10,771 nt of DNA from Deltaproteobacteria bacterium (GTDB lineage: Bacteria; Desulfobacterota; DSM-4660; Desulfatiglandales; Desulfatiglandaceae), in the NCBI GenBank assembly GCA_019314425.1, contig JAFCZI010000049.1, positions 1-10,771 of the forward strand, given 5' to 3'. Of this stretch, positions 137 through 9,674 are shown piece after piece. Positions within the stretch are counted from its first letter, which is position 1. Every line of letters starts with the position of its first letter. The notes below the pieces were generated by a model. That model was not told the origin of the DNA and did no database searches. It worked only from the letters and a program-made list of their open reading frames with translations. The position numbers and the translations under genes are program-made.

Positions 137-1210
137 CTACTTAAAAATCTGGACGACCCGATCATCGAGAAACCCCTTGAGACCCTCTGAGTCTCTAGGT
201 GACCCACCCATGCTTTTCCGCCAAACTTCATCCGATTCCATGCAAAGGTAAAGCCCCAAATCGGGATACCATTGTTCCAGATTCTGCCGCATGAAACGAT
301 AGAGCTCAATCCGAATGGGCTTAAAATAACGGGTCTTGCCGTCGAGACCCGTGATAAATTCTCCATCCAGGATTGCCGTTCCGGGATGTCGTTTTCTGAT
401 AATGGGTTTCAAGTCCGGCATGAACCTGAGAGAGCCCATGCTGATCCAGATAATTCCGTGGGGTCTCAGATACCGGTCCATGAGGTCAATGGTTTTCAGA
501 TATCCTTCCCGCCAGCCCTTATGGGGAATCAGGGGATCAAAGTGGAAACTCACCACAAACCCTTCTTCCTGGCATCGCCTCGCCGCTTCAAGCCTTTGCT
601 TGAGCGTTGCAGCCCCCTTTTCTTCCGTCGCGGAAATAAGTGGGCTGTTGAGGGACCAGGAAACAATGATGCGGTCTCTGTACGGGGAGGCAATCAAGCC
701 GTCTATCTGGTTGGTTTTGGTTTTGAATTCCAAAACAGCATTTTTTCTCTCCGAGAAAGGCTGCATCAGAATATCGGTCCAGCGGGTGAGGGAATCCAGC
801 GCAAGACTGTCCGCGAATTCTCCGGTTCCCACACGGACAATCCGGTCCGGGTCCCGGTCGATAAACGCCAGAATTGGCGCCAGTTTTTCTTCCAGGTTAA
901 CGTGAATCCTTAAATAGGGTTGGTGCAGGAAATAGGATTGAAGAATACAATAGCTGCAATCCAGAGGACAATTGGTCGCCACATTGAGGATTTGATATCC
1001 GCAGCAGATATACTCTTTCGTCCCCGGGCAGGGCTTGAGGAATGCCCCTTTATAGGAAAGCAGGTGCAACGTATCCTTTCCCATGCTTTCGGTTGGGCCC
1101 AGCGGTTCCGCGAATACCGCATGGGGAACGCGTCCCATGATTCGCTTGCTCATGGGGATTTTTTTTGAGGCCTCTTCCACGATGGCATTTTTGATATGAA
1201 GATTGGCCAT
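137..1210 (-). CDS. SPL-family (spore photoproduct lyase-like) radical SAM protein
   Basis: This 357-residue protein has the radical SAM motif CPLDCSYC (C81, C85, C88), which should bind a 4Fe-4S cluster and cleave S-adenosylmethionine. It is preceded by CPGTKEYICCGYQ (61-73), typical of this SPL-like family as I remember it. The family is named for the enzyme that repairs spore photoproduct in DNA. In Bacillus subtilis SPL the hydrogen donor Cys141 lies 44 residues after the last cluster cysteine. The matching stretch here, VGTGEFADS (127-135), has no cysteine. This and the non-sporulating host argue against authentic SPL activity, and the substrate is unknown. The ATG overlaps the stop of the ParB-like gene by one base (TAATG), so translation is probably coupled. 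The region before this ATG has only a weak Shine-Dalgarno. The family call is firm; the reaction is not known. Confidence 0.88.
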   Translation of the reverse strand: MANLHIKNAIVEEASKKIPMSKRIMGRVPHAVFAEPLGPTESMGKDTLHLLSYKGAFLKPCPGTKEYICCGYQILNVATNCPLDCSYCILQSYFLHQPYLRIHVNLEEKLAPILAFIDRDPDRIVRVGTGEFADSLALDSLTRWTDILMQPFSERKNAVLEFKTKTNQIDGLIASPYRDRIIVSWSLNSPLISATEEKGAATLKQRLEAARRCQEEGFVVSFHFDPLIPHKGWREGYLKTIDLMDRYLRPHGIIWISMGSLRFMPDLKPIIRKRHPGTAILDGEFITGLDGKTRYFKPIRIELYRFMRQNLEQWYPDLGLYLCMESDEVWRKSMGGSPRDSEGLKGFLDDRVVQIFK

Positions 1211-2208
1211 TAAACGCTTTTATCCCAAGGATCTTCAAGTGTTACGAGCCCTTCTTTTTTTACCAGGATCAGGAGTTTTCCCATCAAATCGTTTCCATTT
1301 TCAAAAGAGATCTCAAGTTTGTAATGCGGGCCTTCAAAAAAAGGGGGTGGCGTTATCTGGTAACCTGCCGGAAGCGCCAGTTTTTCCACCATGCGTCGGA
1401 AACCTTTTTCAGCCTTCACCAGACGGGGCAGCCGCCTGGACCGCAGAAGGGTGATGAGCGCTCTGGCTTTCTGGGGACTGTTCATTTGCTCGTTATCGCA
1501 AATATCCGTCAACTCAGGGTCATCCAGTAATCGTGCAATGGCATTGTTTTCAATATGCGACAGATCATGAATGAACTCAATAAATTGCGTCTGCTGGTTC
1601 TTGCTGAATTTGATGACGGAAAAATAACGGCAGAATTCCTCTCGATCTACTGAATCCATTTCCAGCAACAGCTTAGCCGCCTTTGTTGACAGCTCCCCGC
1701 TGGCGAGCAGGTCTTTGGCGGGACGCTCAAACGCTGTTTCAATTTGCATAAAAAGGTGAAGGGTTTCTTCGTGTGAGGGCAAATCAAAGAGCGGCATGAA
1801 GGTTTTAATCGCCTCTTTTCCGGGAATCCATTCCAACAGACGTGCCAGGGCCATGCCCTTTTCCACAGGGTTAAAGTCCCTGAGGGTCAGGTTTTCATAC
1901 AGGTTGATCAGCAGGCATTCGCGAGGCGGCGTTTCGGGCGGCAGAACCCGGCACGGGATATGCGTCTCACCCAGTGTCTTTAAGGCCCTTATCCTTCGAA
2001 AGCCTGCAACCACCGAAAATTCAATTTCTCCCCCCCCCTCCCCTTTTTTGACCAGGATCGGCGGGTTGATCAGACCGATTCTGCGGATGGACTCCGCCAG
2101 GGGTGCTGTGTCAAATCCATAGCTCATGCAGTAGGGGCCCGGTGAATCATCGATTTGATTCAGATTGACCGATTGTGGCAATATCTCGACTATTTTGAGT
2201 CTGTCCAT
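1210..2208 (-). CDS. ParB N-terminal domain protein, coupled to the SPL-like gene
   Basis: This 332-residue protein is ParB-like at its N-terminus. LAESIRRIGLINPPILV (37-53) resembles ParB box I, and VVAGFRRIRALKTLG (66-80) resembles box II, the nucleotide-binding GxRR segment of ParB CTPases. ENLTLRDFNPVEKGMA (105-120) follows. The middle (about 160-185) recalls the ParB helix-turn-helix region but is degenerate. The C-terminus (about 285-325) is a separate small domain I do not recognise. The gene is not next to parA, so chromosome partitioning is unlikely; a DNA-binding or CTP-switch role is inference. I chose ATG 2208 because CAGG stands 8 nt upstream and the ParB domain starts at once. 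An in-frame ATG at 2244 lies inside the inserted 110-bp palindrome and would add 12 foreign residues. Nine consecutive Gs encode part of GEGGGE (56-61). Confidence 0.85.
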   Translation of the reverse strand: MDRLKIVEILPQSVNLNQIDDSPGPYCMSYGFDTAPLAESIRRIGLINPPILVKKGEGGGEIEFSVVAGFRRIRALKTLGETHIPCRVLPPETPPRECLLINLYENLTLRDFNPVEKGMALARLLEWIPGKEAIKTFMPLFDLPSHEETLHLFMQIETAFERPAKDLLASGELSTKAAKLLLEMDSVDREEFCRYFSVIKFSKNQQTQFIEFIHDLSHIENNAIARLLDDPELTDICDNEQMNSPQKARALITLLRSRRLPRLVKAEKGFRRMVEKLALPAGYQITPPPFFEGPHYKLEISFENGNDLMGKLLILVKKEGLVTLEDPWDKSV

Positions 2209-2212
2209 GTGA

Positions 2213-2338
2213 AATACCTGGTAAATATTCGGCCAGCACCCCATCTTCGCCTATTTTTGCCTGCTCACATAGCATTAGTATGCTACGCAGTCCCAAATAG
2301 ACGAATATGAAGCACTGGCCAAACATTTACAATACCTG
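2213..2338. mobile_element. 110-bp MITE-like palindrome with 8-bp target duplication
   Basis: The element spans 2221-2330 and is flanked by exact 8-bp direct repeats AATACCTG (2213-2220 and 2331-2338). It starts GTAAATATTCGGCCAG and ends CTGGCCAAACATTTAC. Pairing base i with base 4551-i over the outer 44 positions gives 33 Watson-Crick pairs. The centre adds a CTGC/GCAG-anchored 6-bp stem, TAGCAT/ATGCTA, around a TAGT loop, with a bulge of about 4 nt on one side. It has no coding capacity, so a transposase would have to act in trans. GTAA termini and 8-bp duplications are described for the IS66 family, which makes an IS66-type transposase the best guess; no IS66 gene is in the window. Removing the element and one repeat restores a 14-nt gap between the murJ stop and the ParB-like start. 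Confidence 0.8.
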
Positions 2339-4474: not shown

Positions 4475-5473
4475 CTAAAGAGACAATACGAAGTTTTCAA
4501 GGACCAAGCGTGCCTGAGATCCCGACTTCAGGCGCCCGTCCGCCTGGTAAAGCAGCAATAGCGCTTTTTCCAGATCTTTTTCCTGCCAGCGCCGCGCCTG
4601 ATCGAGAACTTTGCTGAGTACAAACCCGGGGATACCCAGTTTTTTCGCCATTTCTGCCTTTGGGATTCGTTTGGATGCAAATTCCCTGGTCTGGAATATG
4701 ATGCGGAGTTGGCGGGTCAACATACCGATAATGCCAAAAGCAGCGTCTCTCCCCTCTTCTTCCAGATAGCGGTTCAAGATGGACAGCGATTGTGCCCTTC
4801 GACGCTGCGAAATGTTATCCATCAGTTCAAATATCGTATACATCCTGCTGAATATACTTAATTCTTTTATTTCGTTAACGCCAATTTCTTTGCTGCCATG
4901 ACGAAGGTACAGCTTTTCAAGTTCCGTATGAAGTGTCCGGGAGCGGTTACCGACAATCTCCTGAAGGTGACGGCAAGCTTCCATCCTGATATTCAGACCC
5001 ATCTCCCGTGCTGCGGCCTTTATCCAGGGCAACGCCTGACGGTCGTTCAGCTCCCTGAAATTCACGGCCTGGCCAAGTTTTTTGACACTGCTGAAAAACT
5101 TCAACCGAAAATCGGGTTTGAGTGCCACAAAAATCATACAGGTGGTGTCCACCGGCTTTTCGAGATAGTGGATCAAGACCTCCAGATCAGAAGCAGCCAT
5201 GCGGTCCGTGCGCCGGACGATGATGAGACGGTTTGAAGATAAAAACGGCATCGACCGCGCCGCATCCAGGATATCACCCGGGTTGACACTGCTGTCGCCA
5301 TCAAAAACCTGAGAGTTGAGGTCCCTTGCCGACTCAGGAATAAATGTTTCGCGGATTTGCTTCAGAATTTTTTCAAGCTTAAAATCGTCAGGACCGTAGA
5401 AAAGATACACCGGTTTAAGACGGCCCCCTTTGAGATGGGTCAAAACAGCTTCCGGCGCTATTTCAACAGGCAT
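4475..5473 (-). CDS. holA: DNA polymerase III delta subunit
   Basis: HolA is the clamp-loader subunit that opens the beta sliding clamp. The 332 residues compare with 343 in E. coli. The N-terminal AAA+-like part contains KPVYLFYGPDDFKLEKIL (20-37), the degenerate nucleotide-binding segment usual for delta, then SSNRLIIVRRTDRM (79-92). The C-terminal collar domain ends with LLLLYQADGRLKSGSQ, a typical HolA signature. The ATG overlaps the lptE stop by one base (TGATG), and GGGAAG stands 6 nt upstream. It is the last gene of the ribBA-to-holA operon. The lptE-holA pairing is common in Proteobacteria. Confidence 0.95.
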   Translation of the reverse strand: MPVEIAPEAVLTHLKGGRLKPVYLFYGPDDFKLEKILKQIRETFIPESARDLNSQVFDGDSSVNPGDILDAARSMPFLSSNRLIIVRRTDRMAASDLEVLIHYLEKPVDTTCMIFVALKPDFRLKFFSSVKKLGQAVNFRELNDRQALPWIKAAAREMGLNIRMEACRHLQEIVGNRSRTLHTELEKLYLRHGSKEIGVNEIKELSIFSRMYTIFELMDNISQRRRAQSLSILNRYLEEEGRDAAFGIIGMLTRQLRIIFQTREFASKRIPKAEMAKKLGIPGFVLSKVLDQARRWQEKDLEKALLLLYQADGRLKSGSQARLVLENFVLSL

Positions 5474-6009
5474 CAGAATCTTCCCATGGTTTTAAGGTAG
5501 ATCTTTTCAGCCAACAACTGTGCGATTTTCTTGGTGGCCCGCCGCTGGTTATACTCGGTTTTCAGGAGATCCGAATCCACCGCAAAAGAAGCCTTCTCTT
5601 CCATGTTCGGATCATTCCATATGATCTTTCCGGTTGTTGTATCCACGAGTTTTGCTTGAAGCTTGATTTTCAGCCACCTGGAGCTGGTTACATCAAAGGT
5701 GTTGTCCGTTACCCGGTAGCTCAGCGGTTCGGTCTTGATGTTGGTAACCTTTCCAATTAAAACCGCCGCAGCTTTTTCTTTTGAAACCAACGGGACCTGG
5801 GAATGACTGATAAATTCCCGACGGATCATCTTGGTAAAATCCCCTTCAAAGCCGATATTGGAAGAAGGACTTTCCATGAGCGGAATCGCCATGCTGGGAA
5901 TGCTGATGTGCATGGGTTGTCCGGTTGCCTGAAGCTGGTAACCGCAACCGGAGGACAGAATTAGCCAAAACAGCATCAGCAACGTCCGTAAACGGTTATT
6001 TGTATCCAT
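5473..6009 (-). CDS. lptE: LPS-assembly lipoprotein LptE
   Basis: LptE plugs the LptD barrel and helps insert lipopolysaccharide into the outer leaflet. From ATG 6009 the protein has 178 residues. It begins with a signal peptide (MDTNNRLR, then a hydrophobic stretch) and a lipobox-like LSSGC at 18-22, so Cys22 should be lipidated. CGYQL directly after is the family hallmark. HISIPSMAIPLMES and the late region on conversion and stabilisation of strands fit the LptE fold. A GTG at 6021 in the same frame would overlap the leuS stop (GTGA) and add four residues, MIVI. Neither start has a strong Shine-Dalgarno; I prefer 6009 because it gives a normal signal-peptide n-region. Translation is probably coupled to the upstream synthetase. 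The presence of LptE implies an LPS outer membrane. Confidence 0.88.
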   Translation of the reverse strand: MDTNNRLRTLLMLFWLILSSGCGYQLQATGQPMHISIPSMAIPLMESPSSNIGFEGDFTKMIRREFISHSQVPLVSKEKAAAVLIGKVTNIKTEPLSYRVTDNTFDVTSSRWLKIKLQAKLVDTTTGKIIWNDPNMEEKASFAVDSDLLKTEYNQRRATKKIAQLLAEKIYLKTMGRF

Positions 6010-6017
6010 TATTACTA

Positions 6018-9000
6018 TCACACCACCATATTTACCAGTTTCTTCTGTACCACGATAATACGCCTTACGGGCTTCCCTTTTACATGGCGCTGAACTTTTT
6101 CATCTGCCAGGGCAAGGGCCTCAATTTCCTTATCACTGCTTGAAGCGGGCACCTCAATCCGGCTTCGCACCTTGCCGTTTACCTGAAGGATGATCAGCTT
6201 TTTCTCGGTTTTGAGCGCATTTTCATCATAACCCGGCCAGGGAACATTCAGAACCCCTTCATAACCCATCATTTCCCAGAGTTCATCGGCGATATGGGGA
6301 ACTACCGGGGAGAGTAAAATGATCGTAGTTTCAACAGCCTTACGGACAACTGACCACGCAACGAGGTTCTTATCACCTTTGGCATTCAGAAATTGATTGG
6401 TTTCATTAACCAGTTCCATGACCGCTGAAATCGCCGTGTTGAAGTGAAACCGGTTTTCAATGTCACTGGTGACTCGCTTGATGGTTTCGTGGGTTTTCCG
6501 GTGGACGGATTTGATCAGTTCCGTAAGTTCGGTTTTTCCATCGTAGACCTTAACCTTTTCCAGTTCCCCAAGGTGGTCAACCACCAGTCGCCACACCCTT
6601 TGAAGGAACCTGTGGGAACCATCAACCCCCTGTTCACTCCATTCCAGATCCTTGTCGGGCGGGGATGCAAACAAACAGAACATTCGAACCGTATCGGCGC
6701 CGTAACGGTCGATCAACTCTTGAGGATCCACCACATTTTTCTTGGATTTTGACATCTTTACGATATTCCCGTCGGTCACTTTCGCCCCACACCGGGTACA
6801 TCGGCCTTCCACCACCTCCTTTGGATAGAGAAAACCATGTTCAGGACAGGTCTGAGTCGCTTTGCAGACCATACCCTGGGTCAGGAGATTGGTAAACGGC
6901 TCCTTTATCTTGATATGCCCCAGATCTTTCAGTACCCGCGTGTAAAAACGAGAATAAAGCAGATGTAAAATGGCATGCTCAATGCCGCCGATGTATTGGT
7001 CCACGGGCAACCAGTAATCCACCCGTTCCGGATCCAGAGGGCCTTCCCTGTAATCGGGGCACGCGTATCGGTTAAAATACCATGAAGACTCTACAAAAGT
7101 GTCCATGGTGTCCGTTTCACGCTTGGCCTTACGATTGCATTTAGGGCAGGTGGTTTCGGTAAAGGACGGTTCAAATGGCAACGGAGATCCCCCATTGGGC
7201 CGCATGTCCAGATCCAGCGGCAGTACCACGGGCAGATCTTCTTTGTTAACCGGAACAATACCGCATTTTTCACAATGGATCATGGGAATGGGCGTTCCCC
7301 AGTAACGCTGCCGCGAAATACCCCAGTCCCTGATGCGATAATTCACGGTTTTATGACCGACACCCTGTGCCTCAAGATAATCGGCAATGCTGTCCAGGGC
7401 TTCGATATTGCCCTGTCCATTGAAAGGCCCCGAGTTTACCAGAATGCCCCGGTCCACAAAAGCCTGGTTCATCGCTGCTTCGTCCAGATCGGAATCCTCG
7501 GGTTTAATGACCACCCGAAGCTTCAAGCCGTATTTCCGGGCAAACTCGAAATCCCTCTGATCGTGCGTGGGAACCGCCATGATGGCGCCGGTCCCGTAGT
7601 CAAAAAGAACAAAATTGGCCACAAAGATGGGGATCTCCTCACGGGTCACCGGATTCAGGCAGTGTCTCCCCGTAAAAACCCCTTCTTTGGCAGTAACCTC
7701 GGAGGTTCGCACAAAGCGGTCCATTTTCAGGGTACGGTCCACGAAATCAATGACCTCGTTTTCCTGGGGTAATCCTTTGATGATTTCCCTCACCATGGGG
7801 TGCTCAGGCGCCAAACACATGAATGTGGCGCCATAGAGTGTATCCTGGCGGGTAGTAAAAACTTCGATGGGATCTTCTGCGCCCACCATGGGAAATTGGA
7901 TGGCAGCGCCATGGCTTTTTCCGATCCAGTTTTTCTGCATGCTCATGACCCGATCCGGCCAGCCGGGAAGTTTTTCACAGTATTCGAGCATGTCACCAGC
8001 ATAATCGGTGATTTTGAGGAACCAGCTGTTCATCTCCTTGATGGCCACTTCCTGTTCAGGATGTCGCCAGCAGCAACCCTCTTCAACCTGCTCATTGGCC
8101 AAAACCGTCTGGCATTTTTCACACCAGTTCACATGGGTTTTTTTACGATAGGCCAGGCCCTTTTCATACATTTCGAGAAAGACCAATTGCTCCCATCGAT
8201 AATACTCGGGATCACAGGTAGCCAGTTCTCGATCCCAGTCATAACTGAACCCCATGCGCTTTAGCTGGGTTTTCATGGCGTCGATATTCTCATAAGTCCA
8301 TCGCGCCGGATGGGTGTTATTTTCGATGGCCGCGTTTTCCGCCGGCATGCCGAATGCGTCCCAGCCCATTGGGTGCAGCACGTTTTTTCCGGACATCTTT
8401 TTGTATCTGGCTACCACGTCGCCGATGGTGTAATTTCTCACATGGCCGATATGTATTTTACCGGAGGGGTAGGGAAACATTTCCAGGAGATAGTATTTTT
8501 TCTTTGAAGGGTCTTCTTTCGCCTTGAAAATACCGGTCTTTTCCCAATGGGCCTGCCACCTGGGTTCCAATTCCAGCGGATTATATTTCATGTTTCTTTT
8601 TCCTATGCTGTCAGGTTCCTTCGTATCAAATGTTTTTTCATCCCTTCCGGCCGTTGCAGCCCCTTTGGCGGAAGCGGCTTGACTATCCAGGGTGTTGTAA
8701 ATTTTGTCCAGCACACCGTTGATGTACCGGCTGGAATCTTCGCTGCCGAATTTTTTTCCGATTTCAACAGCTTCGTCCAGGGACACTCTGGGGGGGATTT
8801 CCTCCAGGAACATCATCTCATAGGCCGCCAGCCTGAGAATGCTTCGGTCCAAGCGGGCCATTCGTTCCAATCGCCAGTGTTTTGATGAACGACTGATGAC
8901 CCTATCCAGATCAGATTTCTTATCACAGACACCCCGCACCAGCACCCTGGAGAAATCCGTCACGGATTCAGCCATCTCCAAATTTTCGCCAATGAGACGA

Positions 9001-9098
9001 AATGCTTCCAGCGGATCATTATCGCTGAATTCCAAATGAAAAAGGACCTGAACAGCGAGTTCGCGGGCCTTTCTTCGTTCCCCTGTAAGATGTTTCAT
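6018..9098 (-). CDS. leuS: NusB-leucyl-tRNA synthetase in-frame fusion
   Basis: One uninterrupted frame of 1026 residues from ATG 9098 encodes two proteins that are normally separate. Residues 1-136 are NusB, the antitermination factor that binds boxA RNA with S10. A linker of about 33 residues rich in Ala, Lys, Asp and Gly follows. Then comes a complete class I leucyl-tRNA synthetase of 857 residues beginning [13 protein letters not shown] (E. coli: 860). In LeuS numbering, HIGH is at 47-50 and KMSKS at 612-616. The CP1 editing domain ([12 protein letters not shown]), zinc-type cysteine pairs and the C-terminal domain ending [10 protein letters not shown] are all present. I chose ATG 9098 because CAGGAA stands just upstream; a TTG at 9110 is the only earlier start. 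LeuS may also start internally at 8591. Its stop overlaps or abuts lptE. Confidence 0.9.
8589..8608 (-). promoter_or_regulatory. Candidate internal start and ribosome binding site for LeuS
   Basis: An ATG (8589-8591) sits exactly where a normal LeuS begins. AGGA lies 9 nt upstream in an A-rich stretch (AGGAAAAAGAAAC). Free LeuS could therefore be made alongside the fusion protein. The site may be the surviving leuS initiation region from a time when nusB had its own stop codon. Confidence 0.5.
8691..9098 (-). other. nusB: NusB domain of the fusion (transcription antitermination factor)
   Basis: This is the first part of the fused frame, about 136 residues against 139 in E. coli NusB, so a full domain. 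[17 protein letters not shown] near the start and [15 protein letters not shown] followed by [18 protein letters not shown] are strong NusB signatures. [16 protein letters not shown] closes the domain. No stop codon follows in frame. ribH directly upstream, 28 nt away, gives the usual ribH-nusB order. Confidence 0.88.
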
Positions 9099-9126
9099 GG
9101 TTTCCTGCAATGTCAGGGGTTGATGA

Positions 9127-9594
9127 TCACGTCATGTCTTTGAACAGACTGACCATTTCAATGGCAGCCATCGCCGACTCAAACCCTTTGTTTCCGGCTT
9201 TTGATCCAGCACGTTCGATGGCTTGTTCAATATTGTCCGTGGTCAAAACGCCAAAAGAAATGGGAATGCCCGTGTCCAGAGACACGCTGGCAATACCTTT
9301 ACTAACCTCATTGGCCACATAGTCGAAATGGGAGGTAGCTCCCCTGATGACGGCGCCCACACAGATGATGGCGTCATATCGGTTGCTCATAGCCAGCTTC
9401 TTGGCCACAACCGGCATTTCAAAAGCGCCGGGAACCCAGCAGACCGTGATGTCTTTCTTTGAAGCGTCGTGCCGGACCAGCGCATCGATGGCGCCTTCCA
9501 TTAATTTTCTTGAAATAAACTCGTTAAAACGGCTCGAAATAATCGCGAACCGCATCCCCTTTGCTATCAGTTGACCTTCTATAACGTTGACCAT
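9127..9594 (-). CDS. ribH: 6,7-dimethyl-8-ribityllumazine synthase
   Basis: RibH condenses 5-amino-6-ribitylaminouracil with dihydroxybutanone phosphate, the penultimate step of riboflavin synthesis. The 155 residues are full length. SRFNEFI (21-27) holds the aromatic residue that stacks on the substrate, VPGAFEMP (54-61) lines the site, and [13 protein letters not shown] (81-93) carries the catalytic histidine H89. [20 protein letters not shown] (115-134) is the usual C-terminal signature. I chose ATG 9594 because GGAGG (9602-9606) stands 7 nt upstream; an in-frame ATG at 9627 would put the start in the REP repeat. ribBA lies upstream and nusB 28 nt downstream, a widespread arrangement. Confidence 0.96.
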
Positions 9595-9617
9595 AGGTGG
9601 TCCTCCATTAATTGATC

Positions 9618-9674
9618 GGGCAAACACACAGGTTCGCCCCTACGTGTTGGGCAACCACAAGGGATTGCCCCTAC
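9618..9674 (-). repeat. Tandem pair of REP palindromes between ribBA and ribH
   Basis: Two 26-nt units in the same orientation (9649-9674 and 9618-9643) are separated by 5 nt, a 31-nt period. On the minus strand each reads GTAG, an 8-bp stem arm, a 6-nt loop and the second arm: GGGCAATC/GGTTGCCC in one, GGGCGAAC/GTTTGCCC in the other. The units match at 21 of 26 positions. GTAG followed by an imperfect palindrome is the layout of REPs mobilised by RAYT transposases (REP-associated Y1 enzymes). Each stem has one G-U pair that forms only in the minus, transcribed strand. The TAG of the first unit (9671-9673) is the ribBA stop codon. Confidence 0.8.

Follow-up and report, generated by a model that had tools for sequence, protein, structure and literature searches.

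One reading frame for NusB and LeuS

The window, a 10,771-nt stretch of contig JAFCZI010000049.1 from a deltaproteobacterial assembly (GCA_019314425.1), contains a single open frame of 1026 codons that runs on the minus strand from an ATG at 9098 to a TGA at 6018-6020 (Table 1). A TTG four codons 5' of this ATG stretches the mechanically called ORF to 9110. The predicted fused chain has a mass, calculated from the sequence, of 117.8 kDa. Its N-terminal part matches the NusB model TIGR01951 over profile positions 1-130 of 131 (140.3 bits; cut-off 88.35) and can be aligned to solved NusB structures in the PDB (10 distinct sequences). The remainder matches the LeuS model TIGR00396 over positions 1-842 of 843 (1123.2 bits; cut-off 548.4). 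A Pfam search was concordant, returning NusB followed by LeuS with its editing and anticodon-binding domains, and the editing domain PF13603 scored 232 bits. What we take to be the HIGH (aa 216-219) and KMSKS (aa 781-785) catalytic motifs of LeuS are invariant or nearly so in the alignment. A preliminary description of this DNA had proposed that NusB and LeuS share one stop-free frame of 1026 residues and are joined by a 33-residue tether. The TIGR01951, TIGR00396 and Pfam matches bear out the shared frame, and the interval between the domain matches (aa 137-169) has the proposed length.

Table 1. Features of the fused frame and its flanks
Feature	Coordinates	Strand	Remarks
Fused nusB-leuS reading frame	6018..9098	-	1026 aa, ATG to TGA
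NusB domain	8691..9080	-	TIGR01951, aa 7-136
Linker	8592..8690	-	33 residues, aa 137-169; fast evolving, stop-free
Complete LeuS	6021..8591	-	TIGR00396, aa 172-1026; editing domain PF13603, aa 389-576
Internal ATG, Met170	8589..8591	-	Inferred ancestral leuS start codon
AGGA, Shine-Dalgarno-like, embedded	8601..8604	-	9 nt 5' of internal leuS ATG
AGGA ahead of nusB ATG	9103..9106	-	From sequence
ribH, lumazine synthase	9127..9627	-	Directly 5' of fusion
Small protein gene	5473..6021	-	Overlaps leuS end; no NCBIfam match

Beyond ribH, the 5' side also holds a ribBA gene that is truncated by the window edge. On the 3' side lie a small gene (5473..6021), which we guess from its position to be LptE-like, then holA, rpsT on the opposite strand, and murJ. 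Elsewhere in the window, a gene at 1210-2244(-) encodes a weakly ParB/Noc-like protein and is directly followed by one at 137-1210(-) whose product weakly matches spore photoproduct lyase, each match falling below its curated cut-off.

Conservation and distribution of the fusion

The source genome is fragmented (80% complete, 475 contigs), and an assembly or sequencing artefact could have deleted a stop codon or frameshifted the linker. We examined five genomes of the genus, namely the window genome (G000) and G001-G004, which correspond to AUK313, BH30, MASpbin.1 (hereafter MASpbin1) and strain NaphS2, a cultured sulfate reducer. All five carry a stop-free fused frame, NaphS2 (L085) among them; in G001 the frame breaks off after aa 583, where the contig ends, and its next part lies on another contig. 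Some fused clusters come from long contigs (P0011 and P0014; 2.1 and 8.2 Mb). An unfused close relative, which the preliminary description had named as evidence against a fusion, was found neither in the five genus genomes nor inside the fused clade described below (best 120 proteins). With the same in-frame join in five separate genus genomes and in a clade of 20 clusters, an indel error is contradicted by the relatives and is extremely improbable. Because this join recurs in independent genomes that form a clade, it is a true gene fusion conserved by descent.

In the window genome, at 80% completeness, we found no second NusB above the family cut-off and no second close match to LeuS. Its other LeuS-type matches (24-39%) we attribute to further class I synthetases. 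Its other NusB-type match is weak and lies in a 451-residue frame that we take to be RsmB; each of the five genus genomes has one such extra weak match, in a frame of 449-451 residues. RsmB methylates 16S rRNA and begins with a NusB-like domain. It resembles the fusion in placing a NusB-type domain at the N-terminus of a larger RNA-acting protein, but its partner is a methyltransferase and it is encoded by a separate frame in each genus genome. RsmB-type NCBIfam models match the fused frame more weakly than does TIGR01951.

To see how far the fusion extends, we analysed the best 120 of 7998 matches in a protein search. Both NusB and LeuS domains are present in 22 of these 120 proteins (P0001-P0020, P0032 and P0040). 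When the NusB part served as the query, restricted to proteins of 0.55-1.75x the query length, 21 of the 23 matches were NusB-LeuS, including the window itself. The proteins P0017, P0020, P0032 and P0040, in their predicted form, start within NusB. A LeuS tree built from 99 rows recovers P0001-P0020 as monophyletic (SH-aLRT 97, quick method), and their sister is P0021, a LeuS of 858 residues. FastTree on all 120 proteins likewise places P0001-P0020 on one side of a branch with support of 99 and zero unfused rows within. P0032/P0040 and G073, a genome from another family of the phylum, are placed elsewhere in the 99-row tree, where the starred branches force three changes; in the 120-protein tree, which is without G073, the fusion label needs two. 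Uniting P0001-P0020 with P0032/P0040 was rejected by the AU test (p 1.35e-5), which argues that the P0032/P0040 fusion is separate from that of the window clade. The AU test covered P0032/P0040; G073 sits on a long branch joined to a second long branch in the tree. G073 is the sole genome of its family in the sample, and P0124 and P0125 (975 and 972 aa) carry the same fusion. These data indicate that the fusion was most likely fixed once in the ancestor of the window lineage and that it was fixed again in at least one, and probably two, other lineages.

Searches at the DNA level gave a narrow distribution. Among 46 genomes of the family, a stop-free match spanning both genes occurs in five, which are exactly the genus; six more genomes have a spanning match that contains one or two stops. 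In the phylum sample of 395 genomes, where spanning matches rank high in the match list, stop-free spanning matches occur in two genomes among the matches listed, the window genome and G073. An apparent RibH-NusB-LeuS triple frame in G073 (ORF of 1140 aa) was set aside since RibH has its own stop. Long frames in the leuS region of G057, G028 and G006 proved to be separate genes (L104, L108, L112), and the DNA around leuS in six further long-frame stretches (L105, L110, L111, L113, L114, L115) contained no NusB match.

Gene order and the internal leuS start

We compared the fusion with 26 loci from the best-scoring relatives in the family and order (L012-L037). Both genes are readable in 25 of these, and in all 25 leuS follows nusB on the same strand, with a gap of -11 to 761 nt. 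The gap is one-gene-sized (645-761 nt) in nine loci (L021-L023, L026-L028, L031, L033 and L035). These relatives have the same proteins in the same order and on the same strand as the fusion, and in 10 of the 25 loci the two genes share a reading frame. They differ in that one or more stops intervene, whereas none does in the window. Where the neighbours are already in frame, loss of one or a few stops would suffice for fusion.

Other enzymes, too, are found in frame with NusB. The partner is an AMP-ligase in P0122, a CCA-adding-type protein in P0123 and P0126, and a FolD-type protein in P0127. In each case an enzyme is likewise joined to NusB by an open frame, but the partners differ, and these putative fusions are represented by one or two clusters each. 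Such joins suggest that the NusB C-terminus is tolerant of fusion, and they point to gene order rather than function as the driver.

Within the linker, the best-conserved stretch reads ATA GGA AAA, then two variable codons, then ATG; in NaphS2, ACA replaces ATA. The GGA, AAA and ATG codons are identical across the five genomes, while the preceding linker codons are 26-86% conserved. We infer that this stretch holds the ribosome-binding site and start codon of the ancestral leuS. An obligate single product would have no internal LeuS start, yet the ATG at 8591 and the AGGA 9 nt upstream of it are kept in all five genus genomes, so the genus probably makes free LeuS beside the fusion. The suggestion in the preliminary description that fusion fixes the NusB:LeuS ratio thus finds no support in this genus.

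Of the codons in this stretch, ATA is little used in the genus frames (3-6 of 54-59 Ile). The window and BH30 use GGA as a minor codon (10 of 62 and 8 of 63 Gly), but MASpbin1 and NaphS2 do not (15 of 53 and 16 of 60 Gly). The internal leuS site has a duplex energy of -4.2 to -4.4, comparable with nusB's own site in three genus genomes (-4.2 to -4.3) and better than it in the other two (+0.6). By this measure, though, it ranks only 4th to 10th among 26-35 in-frame ATGs. Runs of three fully identical codons were found in 14 of 245 comparable windows (conserved-residue triplets in four genomes). Given the middling rank and the equally identical windows, conservation of the start site is only suggestive. 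As a separate observation, the two genomes with +0.6, MASpbin1 (L084) and NaphS2 (L085), show nothing recognisable as a ribosome-binding site ahead of the nusB ATG, and translation of nusB there may depend on coupling to ribH.

The internal start is less evident in the other lineages. The linker of P0032/P0040 reads IGGQSLSSKYNP, without a Met at the place of the leuS start. Among the G073-type fusions, G073 itself has two Met residues at this place and P0124 one, but P0125 none. The two ATGs near LeuS in G073 have weak sites (-1.8 and +0.7), and its nusB ATG scores +1.2. Barring a non-ATG start, LeuS in P0032/P0040 and P0125 may be made only as a fusion; if it is, then fused LeuS works.

We also compared selection on each part of the frame, using six pairs from four genus genomes. 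Fused NusB has a dN/dS of 0.11-0.13, rising to about 0.23-0.24 in the very close pair MASpbin1/NaphS2, and fused LeuS has 0.07 (0.08 in that pair). Separate-gene values in relatives are 0.05-0.25 for NusB (14 pairs) and 0.04-0.12 for LeuS (13 of 14 pairs where defined). Judged by these ratios, both fused parts are under ordinary purifying selection, and since they fall in the separate-gene range, NusB and LeuS appear to be kept as working proteins. The linker gave 0.16-0.82 in five of six pairs and was undefined in one (30 codons, wide error). Its length is near-constant in most fused members, and the linker alignment contains no conserved motif beyond the leuS start site.

Origin and meaning of the fused frame

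We favour an explanation that is probably correct, in which a tolerated stop loss, a persistent internal start and repeated fixation account for the fusion, without selected coupling of rRNA transcription to charging. Originally, nusB and leuS would have been neighbours 3' of ribH. Loss of the in-frame nusB stop would have let the frame read across the old intergenic stretch into leuS, such that initiation at nusB yields a 118-kDa NusB-LeuS chain in which both domains would work as usual, held by a flexible tether. In the genus, the former ribosome-binding site and ATG of leuS would allow the same mRNA to give a free LeuS of 857 residues as well. All NusB would then be tethered to LeuS, while LeuS would exist in fused and free forms, and the fusion would be tolerated, with no selection for a coupling of rRNA transcription to leucine charging. 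Two findings run counter to tolerated loss: the same partner recurs, and the internal Met is missing from P0032/P0040 and P0125. Both would fit a selected fusion too.

A selected bifunctional protein could act in two ways. The tether could take LeuS to nascent rRNA or S10 at the antitermination complex, or NusB supply or activity could answer to the state of leucine or leucyl-tRNA. NusB works with NusE (S10) on BoxA of rRNA, according to PMC4807359, so a fused LeuS would reach rRNA operons. Leucine charging may possibly be linked in function to rRNA transcription. Fusion of the identical pair in separate lineages, zero unfused rows inside the 20-member clade and near-constant linker length in most members all speak for selection, as does the prospect that LeuS is fusion-only where the internal Met is absent (P0032/P0040, P0125) or its sites are weak (G073: -1.8, +0.7). 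However, the linker lacks a conserved motif except at the leuS start site, that start is retained in the genus, NusB joins unrelated enzymes as well, and gene order by itself provides the opportunity. We therefore consider selection for a bifunctional protein unlikely. The fuller proposal, that a selected NusB-LeuS evolved up to three times and brings LeuS to the rRNA antitermination complex, letting leucine charging and rRNA synthesis each signal the state of the other, is more doubtful still. For a check of boxA we looked for 16S rRNA genes, but none of the five genus genomes gave a match, even the one listed as 98% complete; the missing 16S is perhaps unassembled or withheld.

The frame could also be open and still give mostly separate proteins, if the tether were proteolysed or if slippage at an A-run released NusB. 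An A6 run at 8638-8633 does lie within the linker, whose sequence is unconstrained, but the run is absent from the linkers of the other four genus genomes, and the linker alignment contains no conserved cleavage motif. Slippage at this run was rejected for that lack of conservation, and we doubt that the frame yields mostly separate proteins. Coupling is possible but is not needed under tolerated stop loss.

In the material it covered, our literature search found no published report of a NusB-LeuS fusion and no known aminoacyl-tRNA synthetase fusion with NusB as the partner. A report on Mycoplasma penetrans MetRS (PMC13215547) describes a synthetase with an extra domain, as here. In the main text of the NaphS2 genome paper (PMC2988823), "NusB", "leucyl" and "tRNA synthetase" have 0 occurrences. 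Six fused entries carry a source name (P0004, P0013, P0016, P0032, P0040 and P0121), and all six are labelled only as leucyl-tRNA synthetase or leucine--tRNA ligase. Naming as LeuS alone explains why NusB can go unnamed in such genomes.

NusB-LeuS is a genuine, conserved and recurrent gene fusion. A lineage with a cultured member, NaphS2, joins two core information-processing proteins that are normally separate, and the same join arose elsewhere. An operon boundary has collapsed into a single frame in which the former start site is still present, and the recurrent joins are natural replicates for asking whether repeated fusion means function.
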